The notes under the pieces were generated by a model, which saw only the letters and a list, made by a program, of their open reading frames with translations, was not told the origin of the DNA and searched no databases. From a virus: a stretch of DNA of 64,000 nt. The stretch is taken from positions 1 through 64,000 of the IMG/VR virus record IMGVR_UViG_3300042293_000555; one strand, given 5' to 3'. Position numbers and translations under genes: made by a program. Shown piece by piece: positions 17,801 through 64,000 of this stretch (position 1 is its first letter; each line of letters begins with the position of its first letter).

Positions 17801-18119
17801 ATTTGCTTACATAATTAGTTAATATATTCAATTGCTTTACATACATATCATCTTCCCTAATATTGTAATTTTGAGCTGCTCTAAAATCAACATCACACTT
17901 TACTTCCTTTAACTTAGCAAGTATAGGTGTAGGAAATATTTGAAAACTGCCAAAACCCTTTAACCTTATATTAGGTAAATCTTCACCAATCATCTTTTGT
18001 CTAAAATACTTAAAAGAATCAAGGACAGTAGAATGAAAATCATCTTCAGTCAAATTAGGGTATAATTGTTTTACCTTTTCATAATACTGACTAATCAGCT
18101 GATTTCTCTGTAGTGCCAT
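17751..18119 (-). CDS. IHF/HU-like DNA-binding protein
   Basis: A 122-residue protein with the HU/IHF signature region IRLKGFGSFQIFPTPI, where the family has GFGTFxVRxRxAR. The N-terminal helices (LISQYYEKVKQLYPNLTEDD) fit the family's dimerisation domain. IHF-like subunits are a known feature of crAss-like genomes. It should bend DNA, perhaps for packaging, replication or late transcription. The DNA-binding arm is short and its conserved Arg residues are altered, so sequence specificity may differ. Confidence 0.65.
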   Translation of the reverse strand: MALQRNQLISQYYEKVKQLYPNLTEDDFHSTVLDSFKYFRQKMIGEDLPNIRLKGFGSFQIFPTPILAKLKEVKCDVDFRAAQNYNIREDDMYVKQLNILTNYVSKYEESFKKVAERRNTIK

Positions 18120-18462
18120 AATCCTTATTTATAACCTGTAAATAATAATCCTGACTTACATCATTAGGAATAAGCATCTGCAAAATAGTATTAGAGTTAG
18201 TGACAAATCCTTTAGCCTTTAAACTCTTAATGTAATTAGATAATCCTGCATCAGATAAATTAAGTTCAGACCTTATCTTCTTTTTAGCAGTAGAACCAAA
18301 CCTATCTTCAGCAATATCACCTTGCAACATCATAAAAGAAGCAAGTACTTCAATCTCCTTTGGTGTTAATTTATTACTGGGAATCAGGGCATTAATAATA
18401 GACAAATGTACAATGTAATAATCCTTGTTAGGTAATACTAACTTCTTACTTAGTGCTTTCAT
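18091..18462 (-). CDS. Putative winged-helix regulator, first gene of late block
   Basis: A 123-residue protein with LTPKEIEVLASFMMLQGDI followed by KKIRSELNLSDAGLSNYIKSL, which reads as helix-turn-helix plus wing (MarR/replication-initiator-like). It is the first gene of the leftward block and lies about 30 bases from a host-type -7 box. A transcription regulator controlling the divergent region is plausible. It overlaps the IHF-like gene by 29 bases. Confidence 0.55.
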   Translation of the reverse strand: MKALSKKLVLPNKDYYIVHLSIINALIPSNKLTPKEIEVLASFMMLQGDIAEDRFGSTAKKKIRSELNLSDAGLSNYIKSLKAKGFVTNSNTILQMLIPNDVSQDYYLQVINKDYGTTEKSAD

Positions 18463-18790: not shown

Positions 18791-19036
18791 ATGGCACAGT
18801 TTATTAGCATTGCAGAGTTCAAGCAGTTCACAGGTGTGAACTCTTTCAAAAGAGTATTAAACCCAACTACGGGTAAATACTCACTCTTATTGGACAATGG
18901 CAAGTTTGTCAAAGTCCAACAGGATTTGGACACAACCAAAGATATGGTCTTCATCATCGGTGACGATGAAGAAATCATTGATGGTTGCTTGATAAATTGC
19001 ACAAGCAAGTTCGAAGATACGGGTGACGTATTCTAA
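18791..19036 (+). CDS. Small early protein, paralogue A
   Basis: An 81-residue acidic protein starting MAQFISIAEFKQFTGVNSFK. I chose this ATG because a longer frame would run through C-box copy 2. It is a clear paralogue of the 78-residue protein at 19799 (shared FISxxEFKxxxGVxSFKRVL and NTGKYSLL patterns, KVQQDLD, and a GCL.N segment near the end). Each copy is followed by the same three-way-junction RNA. A host-takeover or DNA-binding role is possible, but no family is recognised. Confidence 0.75.
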   Translation: MAQFISIAEFKQFTGVNSFKRVLNPTTGKYSLLLDNGKFVKVQQDLDTTKDMVFIIGDDEEIIDGCLINCTSKFEDTGDVF

Positions 19037-19041
19037 GAACT

Positions 19042-19107
19042 AAATTACCCACATTCAGGCTCTGTTCCCTGTTAACTATCATTGTCATTGATAGGTGTGG
19101 GTATTTT
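19042..19107 (+). ncRNA. Three-way-junction RNA motif, copy 1 (3' of paralogue A)
   Basis: The outer helix is TACCCACA (19046-19053) with TGTGGGTA (19096-19103). Hairpin A is CAGG, loop CTCTGTTC, CCTG (19056-19071). Hairpin B is CTATCA, loop TTGTCAT, TGATAG (19076-19094). A T-run follows. The second copy at 20050 keeps both loops and the junction while all three helices have different sequences, so the pairing is supported by covariation. It may act as a terminator, RNA stabiliser or regulatory element. It matches no family I know. Confidence 0.75.
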
Positions 19108-19142
19108 CAAATTATTATTTAATCTTTTAAATATATATCTCT

Positions 19143-19445
19143 ATGACAAAGTCAGAGATTCATAACCACAATGAGTTGGTTAATTGGGAAATCAGATCCC
19201 TCAATCTTCAATTACAAGCAATTGAAGAACAAATTGAAAAACTGGGAATGCAATTGGTTAGTCCTGAAATAATGGACAAACATTTGCATAATGAACAAGT
19301 CCGTGAAACTATTCACAGATTAAATGCTGAACTTGTTCAGCAAGAGTCTGAAGAAGAGTATGATAGGATAATGGTATTGATTAGTTACCAATATTCTTTG
19401 CTCATAGATGAGCAAAAAGTATGGAATGTAATTGATCTATTGTAA
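19143..19445 (+). CDS. Small coiled-coil early protein
   Basis: A 100-residue Glu/Gln-rich protein, helical throughout, with heptad-like spacing (LVNWEIRSLNLQLQAIEEQI). It is flanked upstream by the three-way-junction RNA and downstream by a terminator, so it is probably a separate unit or the second gene on the early transcript. No membrane segment or signal peptide. Function unknown. Confidence 0.65.
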   Translation: MTKSEIHNHNELVNWEIRSLNLQLQAIEEQIEKLGMQLVSPEIMDKHLHNEQVRETIHRLNAELVQQESEEEYDRIMVLISYQYSLLIDEQKVWNVIDLL

Positions 19446-19450
19446 GTTTC

Positions 19451-19487
19451 AAGTATAAGGTGTTCTCGTAGCACCTTATACTTTTCT
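19451..19487 (+). terminator. Terminator after the coiled-coil early gene
   Basis: A 12-bp perfect stem (AAGTATAAGGTG with CACCTTATACTT) around a 9-base loop, starting six bases past the stop codon and followed by TTCTC. The T-run is weak, so termination may be partial. Confidence 0.7.
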
Positions 19488-19490
19488 CAG

Positions 19491-19516
19491 TCCTTAACTG
19501 GACACTCCCCTACTTA
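19491..19516 (+). promoter_or_regulatory. C-box promoter-like motif, copy 3
   Basis: TCCTTAACTGGACACTCCCC followed by TACTTACAC. It is the most divergent copy in its T/A-rich part. It lies immediately before a perfect 15-bp terminator hairpin, so any transcript it starts would be only a few tens of bases long, or be attenuated. Confidence 0.5.
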
Positions 19517-19520
19517 CACA

Positions 19521-19557
19521 AAAATAAGTGAACTCTAACGAGTTCACTTATTTTTTT
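19521..19557 (+). terminator. Perfect 15-bp hairpin with T-run directly after C-box copy 3
   Basis: The arms at 19521-19535 and 19540-19554 are perfectly complementary (AAAATAAGTGAACTC is the left arm), with a TAAC tetraloop and a T7 tract. As an intrinsic terminator it would stop transcription arriving from copy 3 almost at once and would also block read-through from upstream. It could define a very short RNA. Confidence 0.75.
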
Positions 19558-19699
19558 ACACATTCACGCATACACTTGAAACTTGAAACGTGTACATATA
19601 TACATATATGTATACTTACTTTTAAACACATTCACTTGGAACTGAAAAATTATACATATTCATTTGAAACTTCTAAACACATTCACGTGAAACTGAAAA
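19558..19699 (+). repeat. Iteron-like imperfect repeats
   Basis: The decamer ACACATTCAC occurs at 19558, 19626 and 19677. A degenerate unit (ATACATATTCATTTGAAAC) starts near 19652. Each is followed by a TGAAACT or GGAACTG type tail. Two units 51 bases apart make the matching reading frame look like a 17-residue repeat, but this frame overlaps C-box copy 4 and is unlikely to be a gene. Iterons of this sort occur at replication origins and regulator arrays. The 19446-19798 stretch holds no gene that I can support. Confidence 0.6.
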
Positions 19700-19733
19700 A
19701 CTACACCATTATATATACATACACATTAAACAC

Positions 19734-19764
19734 TTCCATAGCTAAACACCCCCCTTAATTTAGG
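19734..19764 (+). promoter_or_regulatory. C-box promoter-like motif, copy 4
   Basis: TTCCATAGCTAAACACCCCCC followed by TTAATTTAGG, 35 bases upstream of the ATG at 19799. Spacing to the start codon matches copy 2 and copy 5 (30-40 bases), which supports a promoter role. Confidence 0.65.
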
Positions 19765-19798
19765 ATAGTAATTTTCACATTTCAAAAACCACAAGATT

Positions 19799-20035
19799 AT
19801 GAATTTCATTTCAGTTTCCGAGTTCAAAGAAGCAATTGGCGTTACTTCTTTCAAAAGAGTATTAAATTCCAACACAGGCAAATACTCTTTGCTTGCAGGC
19901 AAAGCATTTTACAAAGTCCAGCAGGACTTAGATCCATCTCTTGAGATGGCGTTTATGTTTGAAGATATCCTTGAAGAAGGATGCCTGGTCAACGTAGACA
20001 GAACTTCTCCATTAGAAACTTTAGACATATTCTAA
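19799..20035 (+). CDS. Small early protein, paralogue B
   Basis: A 78-residue acidic protein, MNFISVSEFKEAIGVTSFKR at the N-terminus, paralogous to the 81-residue protein at 18791. Both start 35-45 bases after a C-box motif and both are followed by the same three-way-junction RNA. The whole unit (promoter, gene, 3' RNA) has therefore been duplicated and then diverged. Function unknown. Confidence 0.75.
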   Translation: MNFISVSEFKEAIGVTSFKRVLNSNTGKYSLLAGKAFYKVQQDLDPSLEMAFMFEDILEEGCLVNVDRTSPLETLDIF

Positions 20036-20049
20036 AGCTAAAGTATTAC

Positions 20050-20127
20050 ACTATTTCACATTCTCATATAGGCTCTGTACCCTATACAATTGCATAGTCA
20101 TTGCAAGTGAGATGTGAAATAGTTTTT
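20050..20127 (+). ncRNA. Three-way-junction RNA motif, copy 2 (3' of paralogue B)
   Basis: The outer helix is ACTATTTCACAT (20050-20061) with ATGTGAAATAGT (20112-20123), extended by CTCA/TGAG after a bulged T. Hairpin A is TATAGG, loop CTCTGTAC, CCTATA (20067-20086). Hairpin B is TTGCA, loop TAGTCAT, TGCAA (20090-20106). A T7 tract follows. The loops CTCTGTWC and TWGTCAT match copy 1, while helix sequences differ with pairing kept. Confidence 0.78.
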
Positions 20128-20156
20128 TTAGTACAAGTTTAAAAAACGCTGCAAGT

Positions 20157-20243
20157 ATGGAAACATTAACATTTATACTCATTAGTGGAGTACTTATTAC
20201 ACTATTTGTAATAGGTACACCTTCAAGAATAAACACAAATTAA
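20157..20243 (+). CDS. Single-pass membrane microprotein
   Basis: A 28-residue frame, METLTFILISGVLITLFVIG followed by TPSRINTN. One hydrophobic helix covers most of it and the tail is polar. It lies 30 bases after the three-way-junction RNA. Small one-helix proteins are common in early regions of phages (toxins to the host, superinfection exclusion), but nothing here settles whether it is translated. No strong ribosome site is seen, which is normal for Bacteroidota. Confidence 0.4.
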   Translation: METLTFILISGVLITLFVIGTPSRINTN

Positions 20244-20506: not shown

Positions 20507-20726
20507 GAAACTGTAGCTCATTGGTAGAGCACTGCAAGGGGAGATTAGACTACTTCCACAAAGGCATTGACTGATTTAAGTGAGTTATAATCCTACGGGA
20601 GTTATAACTATATACAGCACTTACTTCCTGAAAAAGGAATCTTATGAAAATAAGATTAAAGAATGCAATAAGTCGCAGGGGCTATGTGTCATCATAGAAT
20701 ACTGAGTTCGATTCTCAGCAGTTTCA
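20507..20726 (+). tRNA. tRNA-like gene with about 145-base insertion before the anticodon arm
   Basis: Acceptor GAAACTG/CAGTTTC (20507-20513 with 20719-20725), D-arm GCTC..GAGC with an ATTGGTA loop, T-arm CTGAG-TTCGATT-CTCAG and discriminator A are all canonical. Between the D-arm and a 5-bp stem CTATG/CATAG (loop TGTCAT, which could carry a GTC anticodon but has only six bases) lies an extra domain. It is closed by CTGC/GCAG and contains GTTATAA/TTATAAC, TAAGTG/CACTTA and an 8-bp AATCTTAT/ATAAGATT hairpin capped by GAAA. I could not fit group I intron P3-P7 elements. It is either an intron of unknown class or a tRNA mimic. Confidence 0.5.
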
Positions 20727-20763
20727 CAAATATTCATTTTTCATCATACTAAAACCTACAAGT

Positions 20764-24092: not shown

Positions 24093-24172
24093 GATTCTGT
24101 AGCTTAATGGTAGAGTATCAAATACAGTGCACTTTAGTAGTTGAGATATTGGTTCAAGTCCAATCAGAATCA
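24093..24172 (+). tRNA. tRNA-like gene with expanded anticodon loop
   Basis: Acceptor GATTCTG/CAGAATC, D-arm GCTT..GAGT with AATGGTA loop, T-arm ATTGG-TTCAAGT-CCAAT and discriminator A (24172) are normal. The anticodon stem is TCAA/TTGA (24118-24121 with 24141-24144) with 19 bases between instead of 7-9. Part of that loop can pair (TAC/GTA) and it contains the palindrome GTGCAC. No standard 7-base loop with T33 can be closed by a 5-bp stem, so no anticodon is assigned. It may be degenerate, spliced or a mimic. Confidence 0.5.
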
Positions 24173-24205
24173 CAGGGTTTTAGGTTAATGAATGTTGTTA
24201 TCATT

Positions 24206-54734: not shown

Positions 54735-57700
54735 TTAAATACCACATTCATTTGTTTCTAATGTCCAAGGTTCCTCAGACAAAGATAATTCTTTTTCAGT
54801 AGCAGGAGAAAAAGTTTCTAAATCTAAATAGTCATCAGGATTAAATACATCTTTAATGACAGTAAGTTTCTTCTTAGCTCTTGACAATGCTACATATAAT
54901 GCCTGATTCTTAGACTTAGTAGAAGTACCATTTGATAAAATATCATTCTTAAATACATAAACATTATTAAATTCAGAACCTTGAGCTTTGTGTGAAGTCA
55001 ATGCATAACCATATTCAACAGATCTAAATGCTGTTTTATTTTTCTCATACATTGTTTTCTTAACTCTATCAGCTTCTCCTCTTGGTAATTTTGAATAATA
55101 GTTATACAATGATTTTTGAGCTGCTTGAAAAGCTTTAAAATCTAATGATTCATCATTAACTCTAATGTTAAACTCCATTCCATCAGCAGACTTAATAGTA
55201 AGGTCATAAGCCATATATGTACTGTAAGACTCTTTGTTTGTTTTAGTATCATAGTAAGCTATAGCAATACCATTAGGTACTTCATTTACCTTAGTTACTT
55301 CAAAGTGTTGTCCATTATATACACCTATTTCTTCTCCAAACTGATTCTTTAATTTCTCATCAGTAAATTGAGGAGATATCATTTCACCAACATTGAATTT
55401 ACGTTTAGCACCCTGTTCACCAAACAACATTACTCTTGCCTTACCATTCCAATATTTTCTGATTACATTAGAGAATGCTATAACCTTAGTTCCCCACTTA
55501 TCTTTTTTCAAATCAGCCTCTATTGCTGCATCAATTTGATCACTATCTTTAAATTGAACTTCATCACTATGCAACTTAGCTTCTTTACCTTCAAGTACAT
55601 CCTTAACAATTGCATTACTTCTAACATTAGCTGCAACCATATTAGCTACTGTAAGTATCATTGAGTCTTTTTCTTGCCTCATTGATTTACTTAAGTGTGC
55701 AGTATAATTACCTGAATATGCAGTAAATGTAGGAGAATCTTGTCCTTCAAGTTTACTATATTTTTCTCTTATTGGTGGTAACTGTGCATTATCACCCATG
55801 AAGATAATCTTAGCATTAGGTGCAACAAGTTTTTGAACTTTAGATAAATGTGCTAAAAACTCTTCATCAATCATAGAACATTCATCTATGATAATTAATT
55901 GTGCTCCACTCAATGGTGACTTACTTACATCAAAATATTTATCAATCATAAATGTACCTGATGCATCATCTAATTTTAATCCAATCATTGAAGCTATTGT
56001 AGAAATAGTTGCTCTACTACCTATTGATTTCTTAAGAACTTCTTTTGCATTATGTCCAATAGCACCACCTACTACTTTTAATCCTGGATTATTACTCAAT
56101 AACTTTTTCATGATAGTGGTTTTACCTGTACCACCACCACCTGTTAATACATAAGTTTTTGCTGATTTATCTTTAAGAAAATTATTCATTGAATCCAAAG
56201 CATTACTTTGTTCTTCATTGGCAAATACCTTTGGAAATAATTCATAAGCTGTAAATGCACCTGATTCTTCAACTTCATTATTCAAATCAGTATCCTTATC
56301 ATCAGACAAATCAACTTTCTTTTGAGTAAGGATTACAGGTGGAGTATAATCTTTAAGTTTTTCAGCAAGTTCTGTTGGAGATTTTGTATCAAACTTAGCA
56401 AGCATAGCTTCAAACTTATCAATATTTTTATTGATAAAGTCAATTTCTTCAGGCACTGCAACAGCACCTGCTTCTTTAAAGTAGCTCTGAACAAATGGAT
56501 AATTGTTGTAGTCTTCCAAATTAACATCTTTAATTAACTTTGACCATTCTTCATAGTCATTGATAATCATATCATCAATGTTTAATACTAAGTCTTTAGC
56601 TTCAACCATAAAGTTGATTTCTTCTATATCAGCATTCTTCTTAGCTTCATTTGTTTTTTCAAATGACTTAACAATTTCTGCAAATCTAATCTTTGCTTCT
56701 TCCATTGTTGGGGCAACATCAATGAGTGAACCATCATCTGCTAAAATCTCATATTCATTATCTTCATTTAAGAAAATACTAAACTTAGAAGTATCCCATA
56801 CTGTAGTATCAATATCTATTTCTGCTGCTTCAACATCAGCTTTAGCATCCTTCATTACATTGAAAATCTCTTTAATAGCATTAGCAGTAATACTACCTTC
56901 ACCAACTGCAATACCTAAATCACTAAACATTTGTTTAATGAAATCAAAGAACTTATCTACCAAATTCTTATTACCTGCACCATAATCTATTGCTGCCATT
57001 TCTGTCTGAAACTCAGGTTCAGTCATCATCATTTCTACAAACTCCAAGATGTCAGTAACTCCATAAAGTACTTTTGCTTCAAATTGTTTTAATAATATAT
57101 TTTCATCCTTTTTAGCAGCTTCAATTTCAGTAGCTGTTTTTATACTCTTCTGTTTTTTAATTTTCTCCATTACAGTATTGATACCATCAACACCATACTT
57201 TTTTTCTAACCCTAACCTTGCAGCTTTATAGATTTTTAATAAATCTGTAATGTGCTGTGGTATTTCACCAAGAGAATTGTTGAGAGTACCATCAGGATTA
57301 AGATACTTAAGTAGTTGATTATCAGTAATAGAGTGAACAGTTTCTTTAAGGAATACTCTAATCAGTTCATTTTTATCAGCTTGAGCAGTTCTTGGTGGTA
57401 TAGTAATAGTGTTAGTGCCAGGATTATATTTACCCTTAGCAATAGTTTCACTTACTACAATCTTAGTTTCATTATTTACAAATGGTAAAATTGCTTGAGC
57501 AAGTTTCTTTAAGTCAGGACTAATAGATTTATCAGCAATCATATTCTTAATAACAGTACTGATATTGTCTATACCTAACCCAAATCTTTCTTTACTCACC
57601 ATATTAGTAGCTTCTCCTGCTACAGGTAATGGTGTTTTAGGAGCTTTAACCTTTGTTTTCTTACGTGTAGTAATTAAAGATTTAACTGCCCTTGCTGATG

Positions 57701-60700
57701 CATCATATTCACTCATACCATTTATACCTGCAACTATAATCTTATGATACTCTGTACCATGCAATCCCCATAAATGATTTTCACCATTAACCCTTAACAC
57801 TATAAATGGTGGTGTTACTTCAGCAGTAGCTTTAAGGTCAGCAAAAGTAAACTTATCTTTCTTAATCAATTTTAACTTTTGTTCTTCATCAAGATTAACT
57901 AAGTTATCAAGTTTAGGAAGAATATTAGTATTATTTTGTGCAAATTGTACAGCAAATCTACTTGGTACATAGTTTTCACTTCCAACTTCTTCAGATGTAA
58001 TACCAAACTTAGCTGCTGCATCACCATTAAGATCAAGAGAAGCTAATGCATCAGAGAATCCCATTCTTTTTAAATAATCTATAGGAATGAACTTAGCAAA
58101 TTGAATTACTTCCTGTACACCACCTTCAAGAATAGCATAGTTAATCATGTCTTGAGCTAACATCCTTGTATTATAAGTTTCACCATTAAATGATGGCAAG
58201 GATATTTTAGATTCCATTAACTGAAGTAATGCATTAGTCATATAACTTTCATCAAAGTTAGCTGCTGCTGCATTATTAAATTTAATCAATGAAGGTTTAC
58301 CGGGTACAGTAGATGTTTCATATTCCATTACTTGGAACAATTTGTTATTTGCAAAGTAAGGTATTTTCATCAACTTCTGAACATAAGAAGCTAATGATAC
58401 TTTGTTATCTTCTCTTGAATCAAAGAACAACCTATGTCTTTCTCCCTGTGCAGTATTGTTCTCAAACAGTGTTGATTCTGCTGCAACAGTATTCATAAAT
58501 TTCTTTATCTCTTTGAGAATCAATTGTTTTCTTTCAATTTTCTTAGACTCACTTACTTCTCCTAAACTTAGAATTGAGAATATTTCTTTGTTTAATGCTG
58601 CTACTACTTTTGAATTATAAGGAAAATGTTTCTCCCACAATCCATTAGCAAAACTTAAACCTGCAATAGCAATATGTCCACTGATAGTAGTAGGTTTAAC
58701 CCAAACATTGTCACCTAAATTTACAAATTCTTCTTTAGTCAACATCTCAGGTGTACGTGATGTAGTTGGAGATGCAATTTCACCAATCAATGCTCCTGCA
58801 TTTTTAATTGACTTATTCTTGAACAAAGATTTTATAGACTCAAGTTTTTCCTGTACTTCAGGTAAAGATTTACCTAAACCTTTAGAATCTATATTGATAG
58901 ATGTCTGTACTGATCTAAGTTTTAAACCATACTCTTGAAGTAGTTGAAATCTCTGTAATACTTCCTGTTGGAATAATGCTGAATGATTTGTAAGCTGACC
59001 AAGCATTGTTGCATTAGTTAATGCTTCACCATTACCTTCAACAGGTTTAGCAAGAGAGAAACCATACTTTTTAGCAAGAGCATTAAGTACTTTTATTTCT
59101 TTATCAGGATCATATTCTGCAAGATTAGATGAAGCATTATTCATCATCTTTACATAATCTCTAACAATAGGTTGGGATAAGAATAAGAATTGAATAGAGT
59201 TACCATCTGCACCTTTATCAAATCCTAACAATGCCATAACCTTAGATATATCTAATGTTATACCATTAATATTTACCTTACCCATTACCTGTTCTTTCTC
59301 ATTATCTACTGCAATATTTTGAAGTTCCATCAGTACTTCAGCAATAGGTCTTTGTAAACTACTATAATCTTCAAGAATTTTTGCAAAAGCAGGATTAATA
59401 GATGCCTGACCTTCTATAAAATCATCAGCAAAGTTTTCATTATCTTTTATCAAATCAGCAGCATCATCACCTTCTTTAGTATTCAATGCTTTCAACCTTG
59501 CAATAATAAATTCTACTTTACTGACTTTCAATGTTTTAGGTTCACCTAATTTACCATGAGATGTAAGTTCACCAAAAGTAAGTTCTAAAGGTGTTTCTTC
59601 ATCTGCCATCAATATAAGTTGATTACCATTAGCTTTAGCCTGCTCAAATAAAGAATGAGAAGTTACATCTAAAGAATAAGCACCTGTACCTACTTTACCT
59701 GATGCACCTAAAAACATTTTACCTTTCTGATACTCAGAGTTCAGTGGACTAAAATTAGTATCATCTTTTTCTCCTTCCAAAATATCATCAATCATTTGGG
59801 CCTGTTGTTTAGCAAAAGCAATTGACAACACACCATTGATTTTCTTTTGAACTTCTGCATTAGAAGAAGTAAAGATTGATTTATGAATTTTAATCAGTTC
59901 ATTCTGAATAAGTTTTTCTTCTAACCTACTTACATTCTTAGAGTTTTTATTTAATGGAATAATAGTACCACTATCTAATGATGTAGTCCATAAGTTATAA
60001 GCAGTTTCTTTATCTACGTCAAAGTCAAGACCTTTTTGTTCAGTCATGTTTGCAGGTAAAATCATCAAATCACCACTCTCTTCAGGAAGGAATCCAACAA
60101 TTTCAAACTGTGATGCAGATACGTGACCTGAAGTAGGAATCCTAAAAGAAGTTATTGACATTAATTCTTCAGCAATCTTACCTTTCTTAAGTCTGAATCC
60201 TAAATTTGTTTCATCAACATACTTATATCCTTTACCAGATGGATCTTTTTCCATCAGATTAATGAGATTACCTTCACTATCTCTAAACTTAGCAGGCACA
60301 AGTACTTGAGCTGAAATAAAGTTACCTTTGTCATCAAAGGTTGCAGGTTTTAAACTACCACTCCATTTATCAGTCCATACAATTCTATTTTCTTTAACAT
60401 CATCAAGATTGTATTTAAACTTATAACCTTCTTCACTACCTGCTACAAATGAGTTTCCAGGAAACTTCATCTTAACAATTCTACTTTGAACAATAGATAC
60501 TAACAGTGATTCAAATCTATTAGAGTTAGCAGACATCCAAATAGGCATCTCAAATTTAAAGTCAGTAACCTTACCATCTTCATCATAGATATAAGATATT
60601 TGTAAAGCATCAATGTCTTGTTTACCATAACCTTTATCAATAGCTTCCTGTACTAAAAGTTTCTGTACTTTAACAGCAGTTGCTACAACATCAGTAGGTT

Positions 60701-63700
60701 TAAAAGTAACAGGGTCAACTCCCAACTCTTCACAAAGTTGTGTTTGTTTAAGTTTTACCAAATCTGCAAACAGATTAGTAAATTGTTCCTGTAACTGTTT
60801 ACCTGAATAAGTTTGACCATTTAACTTAAATCCTTCAATATCCATAATACCATTACCAAATAATACTTTGGTAAGCTGAGTACCCATACTTACAGTATCT
60901 TCTTTTCTTTTGAAAGATTTAAAAGGTACATCTAACTGAATCTTAAAGTCTTTTCTATTAAGTGTAAGAGATGATTCAAGAATTTTATCTACATCAAATT
61001 CAAGTTCATCTTTCTTACCTTCTTTTGGTTTCTTATGTTCAATAGCAGTGCCATCAGGATTAAATACTTTTAATGCATTGTTGTTTGCACCAACTTTATT
61101 ACCTGATTCATAAGATGCTCTTACATGTTTACCAGTCTTCTTTTCTACTGCTTCCAAAGTTTCTCTGATAACATCCAACTCCATACCTTTAGTAAGTTGT
61201 GGAATAAGTGGATAAGATGATGTCTTAATATACATCATTCTCATTACATCTTGTTCAGCATCATATATTTGACCTGTATATACAGGTTTAATAGGTTGTA
61301 ATACTTTCTTTACTACTGCTCTTTGAGCTTCAGTCATATCTTCTAATGGTGTACCATCAGCAAATAATTTCTTAGCTACCGCTATTTCCTGTGGAGTAAT
61401 ATTGATTGCAGCATCAGCTACCCTACCCATATTTTCTAATATGTGTAAGTGTTCCTGCCAGGTAGTATACTCCTGTGCATTAGTAGCTTCCATATAAAAG
61501 TAATTGTTTGACTTAGGATACTTAGCATTAAAGAACTTAATAGCTGATGCTTTAGCTGCTTTTAACTTTTGAGTTTCTAATTCATCTTTACCTTTTACAG
61601 GCATAGCCATAATCTTGTTATACTCTTCTCTGTCAAATGCTTTATTATCCAACAACTTAGTTAAGAACTCAATGTTGTCAGCTATCTTATATCTGTCATC
61701 TAAGAATATTTGAATATACTGCTCATTCTCAGACTTATTAATTTTAGAACCTGGAGCTATCATTGCAGCTAATCTCTTACCTACATTTACAAAGGTTTCT
61801 TTAACCTGAGTCATTGCAGGATCATTTGGATTAGCTTTATAGTATACAGCAGGGTCACCAATAACTGTCATAAACATATTGGCATTAGCTATAATCTGAT
61901 TAATCTCAAAGTCAAAAGCTGCAATTAGAGTATTGGAAATCTTTGAATCTTTGTCCTTAGCTTTTTTAATCTTCTCTAAATATTCTTTTTCAACAAAATC
62001 CAATTCTCCAAACTCATTCAATATTCCACCTTCTTTCCAATTATCCAATTTCTCATTAACTGATGACTGTACAAATGATTGAATAGCAGGAAGTATTTGA
62101 GATTTATAAGCATCAAGGTCTTTGAGAGTAGTGCTACTGTTATTGATAAATTCTCTAAGGTTTACTTTTTTACCATTAGTAAGAGTAATCTCTAAATCAT
62201 TTAACTTAGGTAAAAAGAATAACATACCAGCACCATTATCATAACTCTTGATATTGGTTTTCTTATTCTTCTCTTTATAAGCAAACATTCTTGTAATTTC
62301 AGGTAGAGCAATTTGCTCATACAACAGTTCCAAGATATCTTCATGTACTCCTACATTTCCTTCACCATCAACATTATAGAAATTAGAATTAGTTAAATCA
62401 AAAGCAGGTGCTTTAACAACAACCATTGTTGACTTATCTGACATTGTTGGGAAAAAGAATCTTGATACTCTTAAAGGAATAGCTAATAACTTTTTACCTG
62501 TACTGTAAGTCTTAGTTGTTGAACCCTGTTTCATATCTTGAAACATAGTAATCTTAGTAGCTTCATGGTCAGTATCACTTAATGTTGTGATATCATTATC
62601 CTTATAACTCTTCTTACCTTTTTCAGTAATAGCTGTCAGACCCAAGTGAGATATACCAAACTTAGAACCTAAACCAAAATCACCATTTGGATCCATCAAA
62701 CTTAACCAAAGAGATTGTTTTGAAAAAGACAATGATTGAAGTTGTGTAAGGATGTCATCAGTTATCTTCTTTCTTTCTTGAGGTGATTTACTGGAAGCAT
62801 CCTTCAACTCATTGAATCTGTCAGTAACATATTTCAATGCAGTAAATCCATAAATAGATTTTTTACCATCTCTAAATGAATTAGTTACAATGTTTTTAGA
62901 ATACTTTGACTGAAGATATGCAAGTGTTGATCTGATTGCACCATCATCTAAAGGATTACCTGTAAGGTTAGTTTCTGATGTAAGGTCAGTTTCAACATTT
63001 CCATTTTTTACTCCCTGACACCAAGCTGCAAGTTTACCAATTGCACCTTTAGTATTATCACTCTTCATAAAGAATCCTGTAGCTGTCAATAACTCACCAT
63101 CACTAAATATTTTATTAGTAAAGATTTGTTCTATTGCTGCATCAGCTAATTCAATACCAAAATAAGATAACCATATTTGTACTTCACTAACAGCTTCTGC
63201 TCTCTCTTCTTTAGTCAACTTCATGTAACCCTTAACTGCTCTTCCTACAACGTGTTCTTGAAATGGTACAATAGTAAGAACACTTTCACCCTTTTCATTC
63301 TTATTAAGGGTTACACTATAAGGTGAACCATTCATTGTCATCTTCTTAGTGGTATCAAGTTTGTTACCTATCTGAGCTAAGAACTTACTGTGAGCAGGAT
63401 TATTAGGATTAAGTGTAACTGTACCTGATTTACCTACACCAAGTTTACTTTTTACAATTTCAACTAATGGTTTATTATCTACATTTGCTAAATCTTTTGG
63501 ACCTGCAAACCAAGAGTCATACTCTTCTAACAAATTATTTGCAACACCTGTATCAACAATGTATTCTCCATCTTCTTCAGTGATAAGTGGATTACTTACT
63601 GCAAATAAATTATTATTCCAAGTAGATGCAATCTTCTTAACAATAGCTGATTGATTGGTATCTGTTACCCTAAGTGTATACTTACCTGTATTAAGGTCAA

Positions 63701-64000
63701 AAGAATACATGGCAAACTCCATCTTCAAAGAGTGAGTGCCCATCTTATTTGCAAATGAATTTTGAATCTGTTTATCAGCAGCTCTTAATTTTACAATAGC
63801 TTCTTTTAACCAAGGATGTGTATCAATGTACAAATCTTCAAGTATCTTCATCTGTATATCAAAGTCTACAGGTTGATCAGCAAGAAATGCTTGTATAGTA
63901 TTGAATACAGTATCAAAGTCTACAAAGGTTGTTACACCAAATGCACCTAATACAGGTAATCCTGTTTTACTATTAATGTTGGTAATCTTTGCTAAGAATA
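54735..64000 (-). CDS. Giant virion RNA polymerase fused to an SF1 helicase (N-terminus beyond window)
   Basis: The frame stays open to the right edge, so the ATG at 63851 is probably internal and more than 3087 residues lie in the window. Counting from that ATG, LDFDVDKE has D1276/D1278/D1280, the DxDxD catalytic loop of crAss-like virion RNA polymerases. A degenerate zincin-like site (LKETVHSITD) lies near 2110. The C-terminal 500 residues are an SF1 helicase: Walker A GGGGTGKTT (Lys2577), IIIDECSMID, ALTSHKAQGSEF and YVALSRAKKKL (motif VI). It should enter the host with the DNA and transcribe early genes. Confidence 0.82.
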   Translation of the reverse strand, partial: FLAKITNINSKTGLPVLGAFGVTTFVDFDTVFNTIQAFLADQPVDFDIQMKILEDLYIDTHPWLKEAIVKLRAADKQIQNSFANKMGTHSLKMEFAMYSFDLNTGKYTLRVTDTNQSAIVKKIASTWNNNLFAVSNPLITEEDGEYIVDTGVANNLLEEYDSWFAGPKDLANVDNKPLVEIVKSKLGVGKSGTVTLNPNNPAHSKFLAQIGNKLDTTKKMTMNGSPYSVTLNKNEKGESVLTIVPFQEHVVGRAVKGYMKLTKEERAEAVSEVQIWLSYFGIELADAAIEQIFTNKIFSDGELLTATGFFMKSDNTKGAIGKLAAWCQGVKNGNVETDLTSETNLTGNPLDDGAIRSTLAYLQSKYSKNIVTNSFRDGKKSIYGFTALKYVTDRFNELKDASSKSPQERKKITDDILTQLQSLSFSKQSLWLSLMDPNGDFGLGSKFGISHLGLTAITEKGKKSYKDNDITTLSDTDHEATKITMFQDMKQGSTTKTYSTGKKLLAIPLRVSRFFFPTMSDKSTMVVVKAPAFDLTNSNFYNVDGEGNVGVHEDILELLYEQIALPEITRMFAYKEKNKKTNIKSYDNGAGMLFFLPKLNDLEITLTNGKKVNLREFINNSSTTLKDLDAYKSQILPAIQSFVQSSVNEKLDNWKEGGILNEFGELDFVEKEYLEKIKKAKDKDSKISNTLIAAFDFEINQIIANANMFMTVIGDPAVYYKANPNDPAMTQVKETFVNVGKRLAAMIAPGSKINKSENEQYIQIFLDDRYKIADNIEFLTKLLDNKAFDREEYNKIMAMPVKGKDELETQKLKAAKASAIKFFNAKYPKSNNYFYMEATNAQEYTTWQEHLHILENMGRVADAAINITPQEIAVAKKLFADGTPLEDMTEAQRAVVKKVLQPIKPVYTGQIYDAEQDVMRMMYIKTSSYPLIPQLTKGMELDVIRETLEAVEKKTGKHVRASYESGNKVGANNNALKVFNPDGTAIEHKKPKEGKKDELEFDVDKILESSLTLNRKDFKIQLDVPFKSFKRKEDTVSMGTQLTKVLFGNGIMDIEGFKLNGQTYSGKQLQEQFTNLFADLVKLKQTQLCEELGVDPVTFKPTDVVATAVKVQKLLVQEAIDKGYGKQDIDALQISYIYDEDGKVTDFKFEMPIWMSANSNRFESLLVSIVQSRIVKMKFPGNSFVAGSEEGYKFKYNLDDVKENRIVWTDKWSGSLKPATFDDKGNFISAQVLVPAKFRDSEGNLINLMEKDPSGKGYKYVDETNLGFRLKKGKIAEELMSITSFRIPTSGHVSASQFEIVGFLPEESGDLMILPANMTEQKGLDFDVDKETAYNLWTTSLDSGTIIPLNKNSKNVSRLEEKLIQNELIKIHKSIFTSSNAEVQKKINGVLSIAFAKQQAQMIDDILEGEKDDTNFSPLNSEYQKGKMFLGASGKVGTGAYSLDVTSHSLFEQAKANGNQLILMADEETPLELTFGELTSHGKLGEPKTLKVSKVEFIIARLKALNTKEGDDAADLIKDNENFADDFIEGQASINPAFAKILEDYSSLQRPIAEVLMELQNIAVDNEKEQVMGKVNINGITLDISKVMALLGFDKGADGNSIQFLFLSQPIVRDYVKMMNNASSNLAEYDPDKEIKVLNALAKKYGFSLAKPVEGNGEALTNATMLGQLTNHSALFQQEVLQRFQLLQEYGLKLRSVQTSINIDSKGLGKSLPEVQEKLESIKSLFKNKSIKNAGALIGEIASPTTSRTPEMLTKEEFVNLGDNVWVKPTTISGHIAIAGLSFANGLWEKHFPYNSKVVAALNKEIFSILSLGEVSESKKIERKQLILKEIKKFMNTVAAESTLFENNTAQGERHRLFFDSREDNKVSLASYVQKLMKIPYFANNKLFQVMEYETSTVPGKPSLIKFNNAAAANFDESYMTNALLQLMESKISLPSFNGETYNTRMLAQDMINYAILEGGVQEVIQFAKFIPIDYLKRMGFSDALASLDLNGDAAAKFGITSEEVGSENYVPSRFAVQFAQNNTNILPKLDNLVNLDEEQKLKLIKKDKFTFADLKATAEVTPPFIVLRVNGENHLWGLHGTEYHKIIVAGINGMSEYDASARAVKSLITTRKKTKVKAPKTPLPVAGEATNMVSKERFGLGIDNISTVIKNMIADKSISPDLKKLAQAILPFVNNETKIVVSETIAKGKYNPGTNTITIPPRTAQADKNELIRVFLKETVHSITDNQLLKYLNPDGTLNNSLGEIPQHITDLLKIYKAARLGLEKKYGVDGINTVMEKIKKQKSIKTATEIEAAKKDENILLKQFEAKVLYGVTDILEFVEMMMTEPEFQTEMAAIDYGAGNKNLVDKFFDFIKQMFSDLGIAVGEGSITANAIKEIFNVMKDAKADVEAAEIDIDTTVWDTSKFSIFLNEDNEYEILADDGSLIDVAPTMEEAKIRFAEIVKSFEKTNEAKKNADIEEINFMVEAKDLVLNIDDMIINDYEEWSKLIKDVNLEDYNNYPFVQSYFKEAGAVAVPEEIDFINKNIDKFEAMLAKFDTKSPTELAEKLKDYTPPVILTQKKVDLSDDKDTDLNNEVEESGAFTAYELFPKVFANEEQSNALDSMNNFLKDKSAKTYVLTGGGGTGKTTIMKKLLSNNPGLKVVGGAIGHNAKEVLKKSIGSRATISTIASMIGLKLDDASGTFMIDKYFDVSKSPLSGAQLIIIDECSMIDEEFLAHLSKVQKLVAPNAKIIFMGDNAQLPPIREKYSKLEGQDSPTFTAYSGNYTAHLSKSMRQEKDSMILTVANMVAANVRSNAIVKDVLEGKEAKLHSDEVQFKDSDQIDAAIEADLKKDKWGTKVIAFSNVIRKYWNGKARVMLFGEQGAKRKFNVGEMISPQFTDEKLKNQFGEEIGVYNGQHFEVTKVNEVPNGIAIAYYDTKTNKESYSTYMAYDLTIKSADGMEFNIRVNDESLDFKAFQAAQKSLYNYYSKLPRGEADRVKKTMYEKNKTAFRSVEYGYALTSHKAQGSEFNNVYVFKNDILSNGTSTKSKNQALYVALSRAKKKLTVIKDVFNPDDYLDLETFSPATEKELSLSEEPWTLETNECGI

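Follow-up and report, generated by a model that had tools for sequence, protein, structure and literature searches.

Background

Early transcripts of HK022 carry the put RNAs, two related two-stem elements of about 70 nt, which lie 3' of early promoters and ahead of the genes and terminators that they control (PMC9378689), and which act via the zinc-binding domain of RNA polymerase. Candidate structured RNAs from microbiomes include some that are terminator-like and some that are phage-associated (PMC8040213). A literature search found no described counterpart of the element reported here, a three-way-junction RNA present in two copies in the genome of a freshwater virus of bacteria. It lies in a window of 64,000 nucleotides, the whole stretch of DNA analysed, which is part of a source record of 85,045 bases (IMG/VR record IMGVR_UViG_3300042293_000555), and it was proposed in an earlier reading made from the sequence without database searches (hereafter, the sequence-only reading). 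Computed here are the location of the element, its predicted fold, the compensating changes in its stems, and its replacement in relatives by plain hairpins or other modules.

Methods

Members of the protein family PHROG 15744, to which the gene upstream of each copy belongs, were surveyed where they lie near a terminase or initiator gene, and the DNA 3' of each stop codon was read. The element of the window (type I) was sought using Rfam 15 at the curated gathering threshold, a covariance model (R1) run on 37 lineage loci and 19 records, and pattern scans, two of IMG/VR and one of genome contigs, the last evaluated on the matches listed. Covariation within type I was scored on a core alignment of two sequences (14 pairs, 28 cells), with slid partners and 500 shuffles as controls.

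Genomic setting

IMG/VR contains 46 loci related to the terminase of the window, most of them at about 80% identity, and an initiator-like gene (18091-18462), which gives a weak DnaD-like match, is related to genes of cultured Flavobacterium psychrophilum phages in the genus Fipvunavirus. Structural genes occupy the minus strand, running leftward, as far as about 18460, and small early genes run rightward from about 18,790. Two of the latter, gene 1 (18791-19036, plus strand, 81 aa) and gene 2 (19799-20035, plus strand, 78 aa), are paralogous and 59% identical, and belong to PHROG 15744, a family without assigned function found in Fipvunavirus-like phages. Other small early genes in the window have T-tailed hairpins at their ends. 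A repeated motif of the form TCCTTAACTAAACACCCCCCTTWATKT (plus strand; 18645, 18736, 19502, 19746, 21883 and 23917) precedes early genes, is commoner than chance and is also present in loci L008 and L044; it is a candidate early promoter or operator.

In Rfam the window yields two tRNAs only. Within a tRNA-like gene (20507-20727, plus strand), a predicted 128-nt insert, for which Rfam gave no intron match, breaks the anticodon arm; for the second tRNA gene (24093-24173, plus strand; 48 bits in Rfam), ARAGORN gives an unusual tRNA that has an 8-nt insert and the anticodon TTA. An ORF of 3038 aa (54735-63851, minus strand) has a PIF1/AAA_30-like helicase domain close to its C-terminus.

Structure and covariation of the type I element

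Both copies lie on the plus strand after the paralogous genes, as the sequence-only reading had placed them, and in both the predicted minimum-energy fold is the three-way junction that it described, with an outer helix around hairpins A and B. In copy 1 (19046-19103; -21.3 kcal/mol, shuffle z -3.8), positions 19046-19054 pair with 19095-19103 (TACCCACAT/GTGTGGGTA) to enclose hairpin A (19056-19071; CAGG, loop CTCTGTTC at 19060-19067, CCTG), the linker TTAA (19072-19075) and hairpin B (19076-19094; CTATCA, loop TTGTCAT at 19082-19088, TGATAG). Copy 2 (20050-20123; -26.3 kcal/mol, shuffle z -5.0) has a longer outer helix, in which 20050-20061 and 20063-20067, separated by a U bulge at 20062, pair with 20107-20111 and 20112-20123 (ACTATTTCACAT plus CTCA versus TGAG plus ATGTGAAATAGT); inside it are hairpin A (20068-20085; ATAGG, loop CTCTGTAC at 20073-20080, CCTAT), the linker ACAA and hairpin B (20090-20106; TTGCA, loop TAGTCAT at 20095-20101, TGCAA). 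Seven T residues (20123-20129), the first of which also closes the outer helix, form a terminator-like run directly 3' of copy 2, whereas copy 1 is followed only by ATTTTC, weak as a U run. The loops are near-identical between copies, as had been claimed. The G after hairpin B, read as single, is likewise kept, but in both copies it can pair as U.G with the U preceding hairpin A.

That the stems compensate in all three helices also held up: the 28 core cells were all paired, and 5 of the 14 pairs had changed on both sides (two outer-helix pairs, one pair of hairpin A and two of hairpin B) with none broken. Slid controls gave 28-52% paired cells and no double change, and the covariation score was reached in 18 of 500 shuffles. 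Since only two sequences are compared, and since the outer stem would be paired anyway if it were a terminator, the type I copies taken alone are suggestive, and not significant, evidence for covariation. The selection on RNA structure claimed from them is suggested by type I and finds its support in relatives at the same site, which the sequence-only reading had not foreseen.

Absence of a known family for the motif was borne out, type I being unmatched in Rfam; nine related loci gave no match either. Model R1 recovered known copies only. Beyond the window phage and near-identical contigs (L002 and, for copy 2, L003 and L044), the pattern scans returned chance matches lacking the full fold, in the genome contigs among the matches listed. 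An Erwinia phage and G001 each gave a weak hit, rejected as type I because neither forms the fold. In these searches the exact motif was found only in the window phage and near-identical contigs, so that its covariation rests on two sequences, and type I appears to be lineage-specific as far as the collections searched reach. Identity of copy 2 in L044 was considered as a sign of purifying selection and set aside, because it runs on over more than 400 downstream bases. According to the sequence-only reading, a lack of further homologues with conserved loops, or probing with unpaired stems, would speak against the motif; half of this came about, in that no type I homologue was found outside the window phage and near-identical contigs.

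The same site in related phages

A hairpin-like structure follows the gene in all 21 members with readable flank. In nine it is a plain stem that a T run usually follows, and in cultured Fpv1 a plain hairpin of 17 bp, T run included, stands just after the gene. Type I accounts for three members (two in the window and one in L044), type II for five (L047, L021, L073, L069 and L025) and type III for four. Type II is a three-way junction in which a first hairpin with a 7-nt loop TAATCRT, a linker TTAAA and a second hairpin with a 9-nt loop ARYYGRAAA are carried on variable stems, with a U.G pair at the junction. In type II, 11 of 16 pairs have changed on both sides, a compensation that comes mainly from L025 versus L047 and L069; 98% of cells are paired, and the score was reached by none of the shuffles. 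Type III consists of a core TTAGTCCTWATGSTGTAGGTTAASCAT, slightly altered in L044, on variable stems. Six of its pairs have changed on both sides and no pair is broken; five of the six belong to the outer stem, and the sixth, where L060 has C-G for G-C, belongs to the inner stem. The first stem, of 3 bp, is invariant and remains unproven, and the tip may form a small pseudoknot (CCT with AGG and ATGGT with ACCAT). A type III-like match in L082 looks like chance.

Types I and II share their site after the same gene family, the three-way junction and the U.G pair at the junction, and type II also shares a UUAA linker with copy 1 of type I, but not with copy 2. Their loops differ, and while a TWRTCRT-like loop is found in both types, it is in swapped hairpins. 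Neither of the two covariance models (R1 and R2) recovers members of the other type, and the two types were not found to be one RNA class. The compensated pairs of type II, the type III modules, and the fact that these occupy the same position in alternation with plain hairpins support selection on RNA structure at this site; the presence of RNA structure itself we regard as well supported.

Other structured sequences were seen in these phages. In L024, L029, L038 and L069, a conserved noncoding core on the minus strand of the early region, CCCAAGTTGTTGAGGGCACCAGTTTCTTTGATA ... TATCAAAGTTTTAGGTGTAAAACAC, surrounds an insert that differs greatly in sequence and length in each phage; it has no Rfam match and may be a further undescribed RNA, one arm of which is hypervariable. 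L071 contains a perfect 16-bp inverted repeat (CAAATGTCAATATGAA, 1496-1602) with a structured interior of 75 nt.

The four site states imply a minimum of eight changes on the gene tree; for type III, a minimum of four follows from well-supported branches. Several long branches and six open forks make the exact number uncertain. Two comparisons are independent of the deep tree. The orthologues of gene 1 in the window and in L044 encode 89% identical proteins and are followed by type I and type III, respectively; and L060, of type III, falls into one group with L029 and L059, which are plain. The same stem base, AGTATAGCGTA, is common to L060 and L024, which bear type III, and to L029 and L059, which bear no module. 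Module types thus appear to have been exchanged at the site, and the modules may be either mobile between phages or old and often lost. Both comparisons argue against a dedicated pairing of the gene product with its own module. The PHROG 15744 protein is modelled confidently (pLDDT 89) as a small, mostly-beta fold with no PDB match better than E 1.2 and one viral match (E 3e-6) to an unnamed protein; lacking convincing structural relatives of known function, it gives no functional clue.

Downstream genes and strand

In most members the next ORF encodes a tiny hydrophobic (membrane) protein and starts about 20-40 nt past the helix, L047 being an exception at about 70 nt. Gene 2 of the window is followed, about 33 nt past copy 2, by an ORF of 28 aa (20157-20243, plus strand) with a predicted membrane stretch METLTFILISGVLITLFVIGTPSRINTN. 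The ORF of 100 aa just 3' of copy 1 (19143-19445, plus strand), which is missing at the corresponding place in L044, is not an obvious membrane protein. The gap between helix and ORF leaves little room for a separate promoter, and the simplest reading is transcription of the two genes with the hairpin between them. Type II elements in L047 and L025 lack a T run, so that type II is not explicable as a terminator alone.

Loop B of copy 1 (TTGTCAT) is fully complementary to the start ATGACAA of the 100-aa ORF (19143-19149). The start region ATGACAAAGTCAGAG (19143-19157) is complementary to this loop over 7 nt and to part of loop A over 5 nt, for which the probability by chance is about 2%. No such complementarity was found in copy 2 or in type II, and pairing of loops with downstream start codons was rejected as a general rule, as it applies to copy 1 only.

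Sense and antisense folding energies are similar, and energy therefore cannot decide between RNA and DNA. The junction U.G pairs that are kept, along with a G.U pair in the stems of L024 and L060, favour an RNA of the gene strand, which we take as modest evidence from base pairing.

Proposed function and alternative explanations

We give an even chance to the element being a hairpin that acts, between two early genes, as a transcript end or attenuator and whose tip is an exchangeable structured module. The structured RNA would be transcribed from the spacer between an early PHROG 15744 gene and the next small gene, with its outer helix at the place of an intrinsic terminator hairpin, a layout that copy 2 retains (a helix of 16 to 17 bp with a U run after it). 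The hairpin would end most transcripts of the upstream gene, and a minority would read through to the next ORF, in many relatives that of a tiny membrane protein. The tip would be a modular position, filled here by a three-way junction with two fixed loops on display; in relatives it would be filled by a three-way junction of another kind or possibly by a small pseudoknot, or left empty. Such a compact tip would most likely stabilise the 3' end or set the level of read-through, perhaps via loops shown to a putative protein or RNA partner.

This attenuator reading is supported by the fold z-scores (-3.8 and -5.0) and the compensated, unbroken pairs of types I, II and III; by the plain hairpins, most of them T-tailed, of nine out of 21 members and by that of Fpv1; by the stem base common to members with and without a module; by the T-tailed hairpins that end other small early genes of the window; by the type changes on the gene tree (at least eight) and the 89%-identical orthologue of different type; and by the short hydrophobic ORF that follows the helix at roughly 20-40 nt in most members. 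It is weakened by the type II elements of L047 and L025, which without a T run are not plain terminators, by the lack of an independent type I homologue beyond the two copies, and by sense and antisense strands folding equally well.

Alternatively, the module could be a 5'-leader regulatory RNA controlling translation or stability of the downstream membrane-protein ORF, e.g. as a translational switch to which a protein binds, the upstream gene being a mere neighbour. The closeness of the helix to the next start codon in many relatives, the missing T run of type II and the complementarity of copy 1 loop B with the start of the 100-aa ORF are consistent with such a leader, but the complementarity does not extend to copy 2 or type II, nine relatives have a plain hairpin at the site, and the 100-aa ORF is not obviously a membrane protein, so that we consider this explanation unlikely. 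Autoregulation, with the PHROG 15744 product binding the module in the mRNA that encodes it, would account for the constant linkage of the element to these genes and would involve a small, confidently modelled protein; given, however, that types I and III accompany 89%-identical orthologues, that members without a module are common, that module type does not track the protein tree and that no known RNA-binding protein matches the model in structure, it was rejected as improbable.

Modules that look swapped between stems, an antisense strand that folds as well as the sense strand and the nearby initiator-like gene would also fit a DNA-level hairpin site, e.g. a folded single-strand recombination or replication site with loops read in DNA. 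We judge this quite unlikely, as the kept junction U.G of types I and II would be an A.C mismatch on the opposite strand, and the element holds a terminator position in constant orientation after the gene. An RNA antiterminator of the HK022 put kind, modifying RNA polymerase for read-through of following terminators, would agree with two similar early copies of roughly 60-75 nt, each with two adjacent hairpins, and with several T-tailed hairpins downstream. The hairpins are, however, inside a long outer helix that is itself terminator-like in copy 2, the element follows genes and is not near a promoter, and many relatives keep the gene with a plain hairpin instead, which makes this explanation very improbable.

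We tentatively entertain, as a doubtful possibility, that in a family of phages the hairpin site after a small early gene is kept as a socket for interchangeable structured RNA modules, two classes of three-way junction and one pseudoknot-like class, swapped independently of the protein, that tune or sense expression across both genes, perhaps with host factors as the trigger. Should the tips have a function, ordinary phage transcript-end hairpins would be decorated with exchangeable RNA folds, which would offer a simple route to the origin of new regulatory RNAs and a place to seek phage RNAs acting on host factors. Natural pairs with and without a given module are available in L060 and L024 versus L029 and L059, and in gene 1 of the window versus L044.

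Comparison with known systems

Like the put RNAs of HK022, the element comes as an early pair of related copies, similar in size, each with two stem-loops side by side; unlike them, it is enclosed by an outer helix, follows a gene and is not kept across relatives. A put-like position, 3' of early promoters and before controlled genes, was not found for either copy, both being after a gene in the position of a hairpin. With the microbiome candidates (PMC8040213) it shares being intergenic and structured with no known function, some of those being terminator-like, a likeness drawn by description only; no Rfam model matches the element. Together with the site in relatives, it points to an exchangeable RNA element that is undescribed and whose function is unproven. 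It resembles an intrinsic (Rho-independent) terminator in its place after a gene, its strong outer helix and, in copy 2, the run of seven T, and differs in that the apex, a simple loop in a terminator, is here a three-way junction whose loops are conserved and whose stems compensate, and in that type II members lack a T run. Among these systems, the element would work most like an intrinsic terminator, with an apex unlike that of ordinary ones and a U run that not all copies carry.
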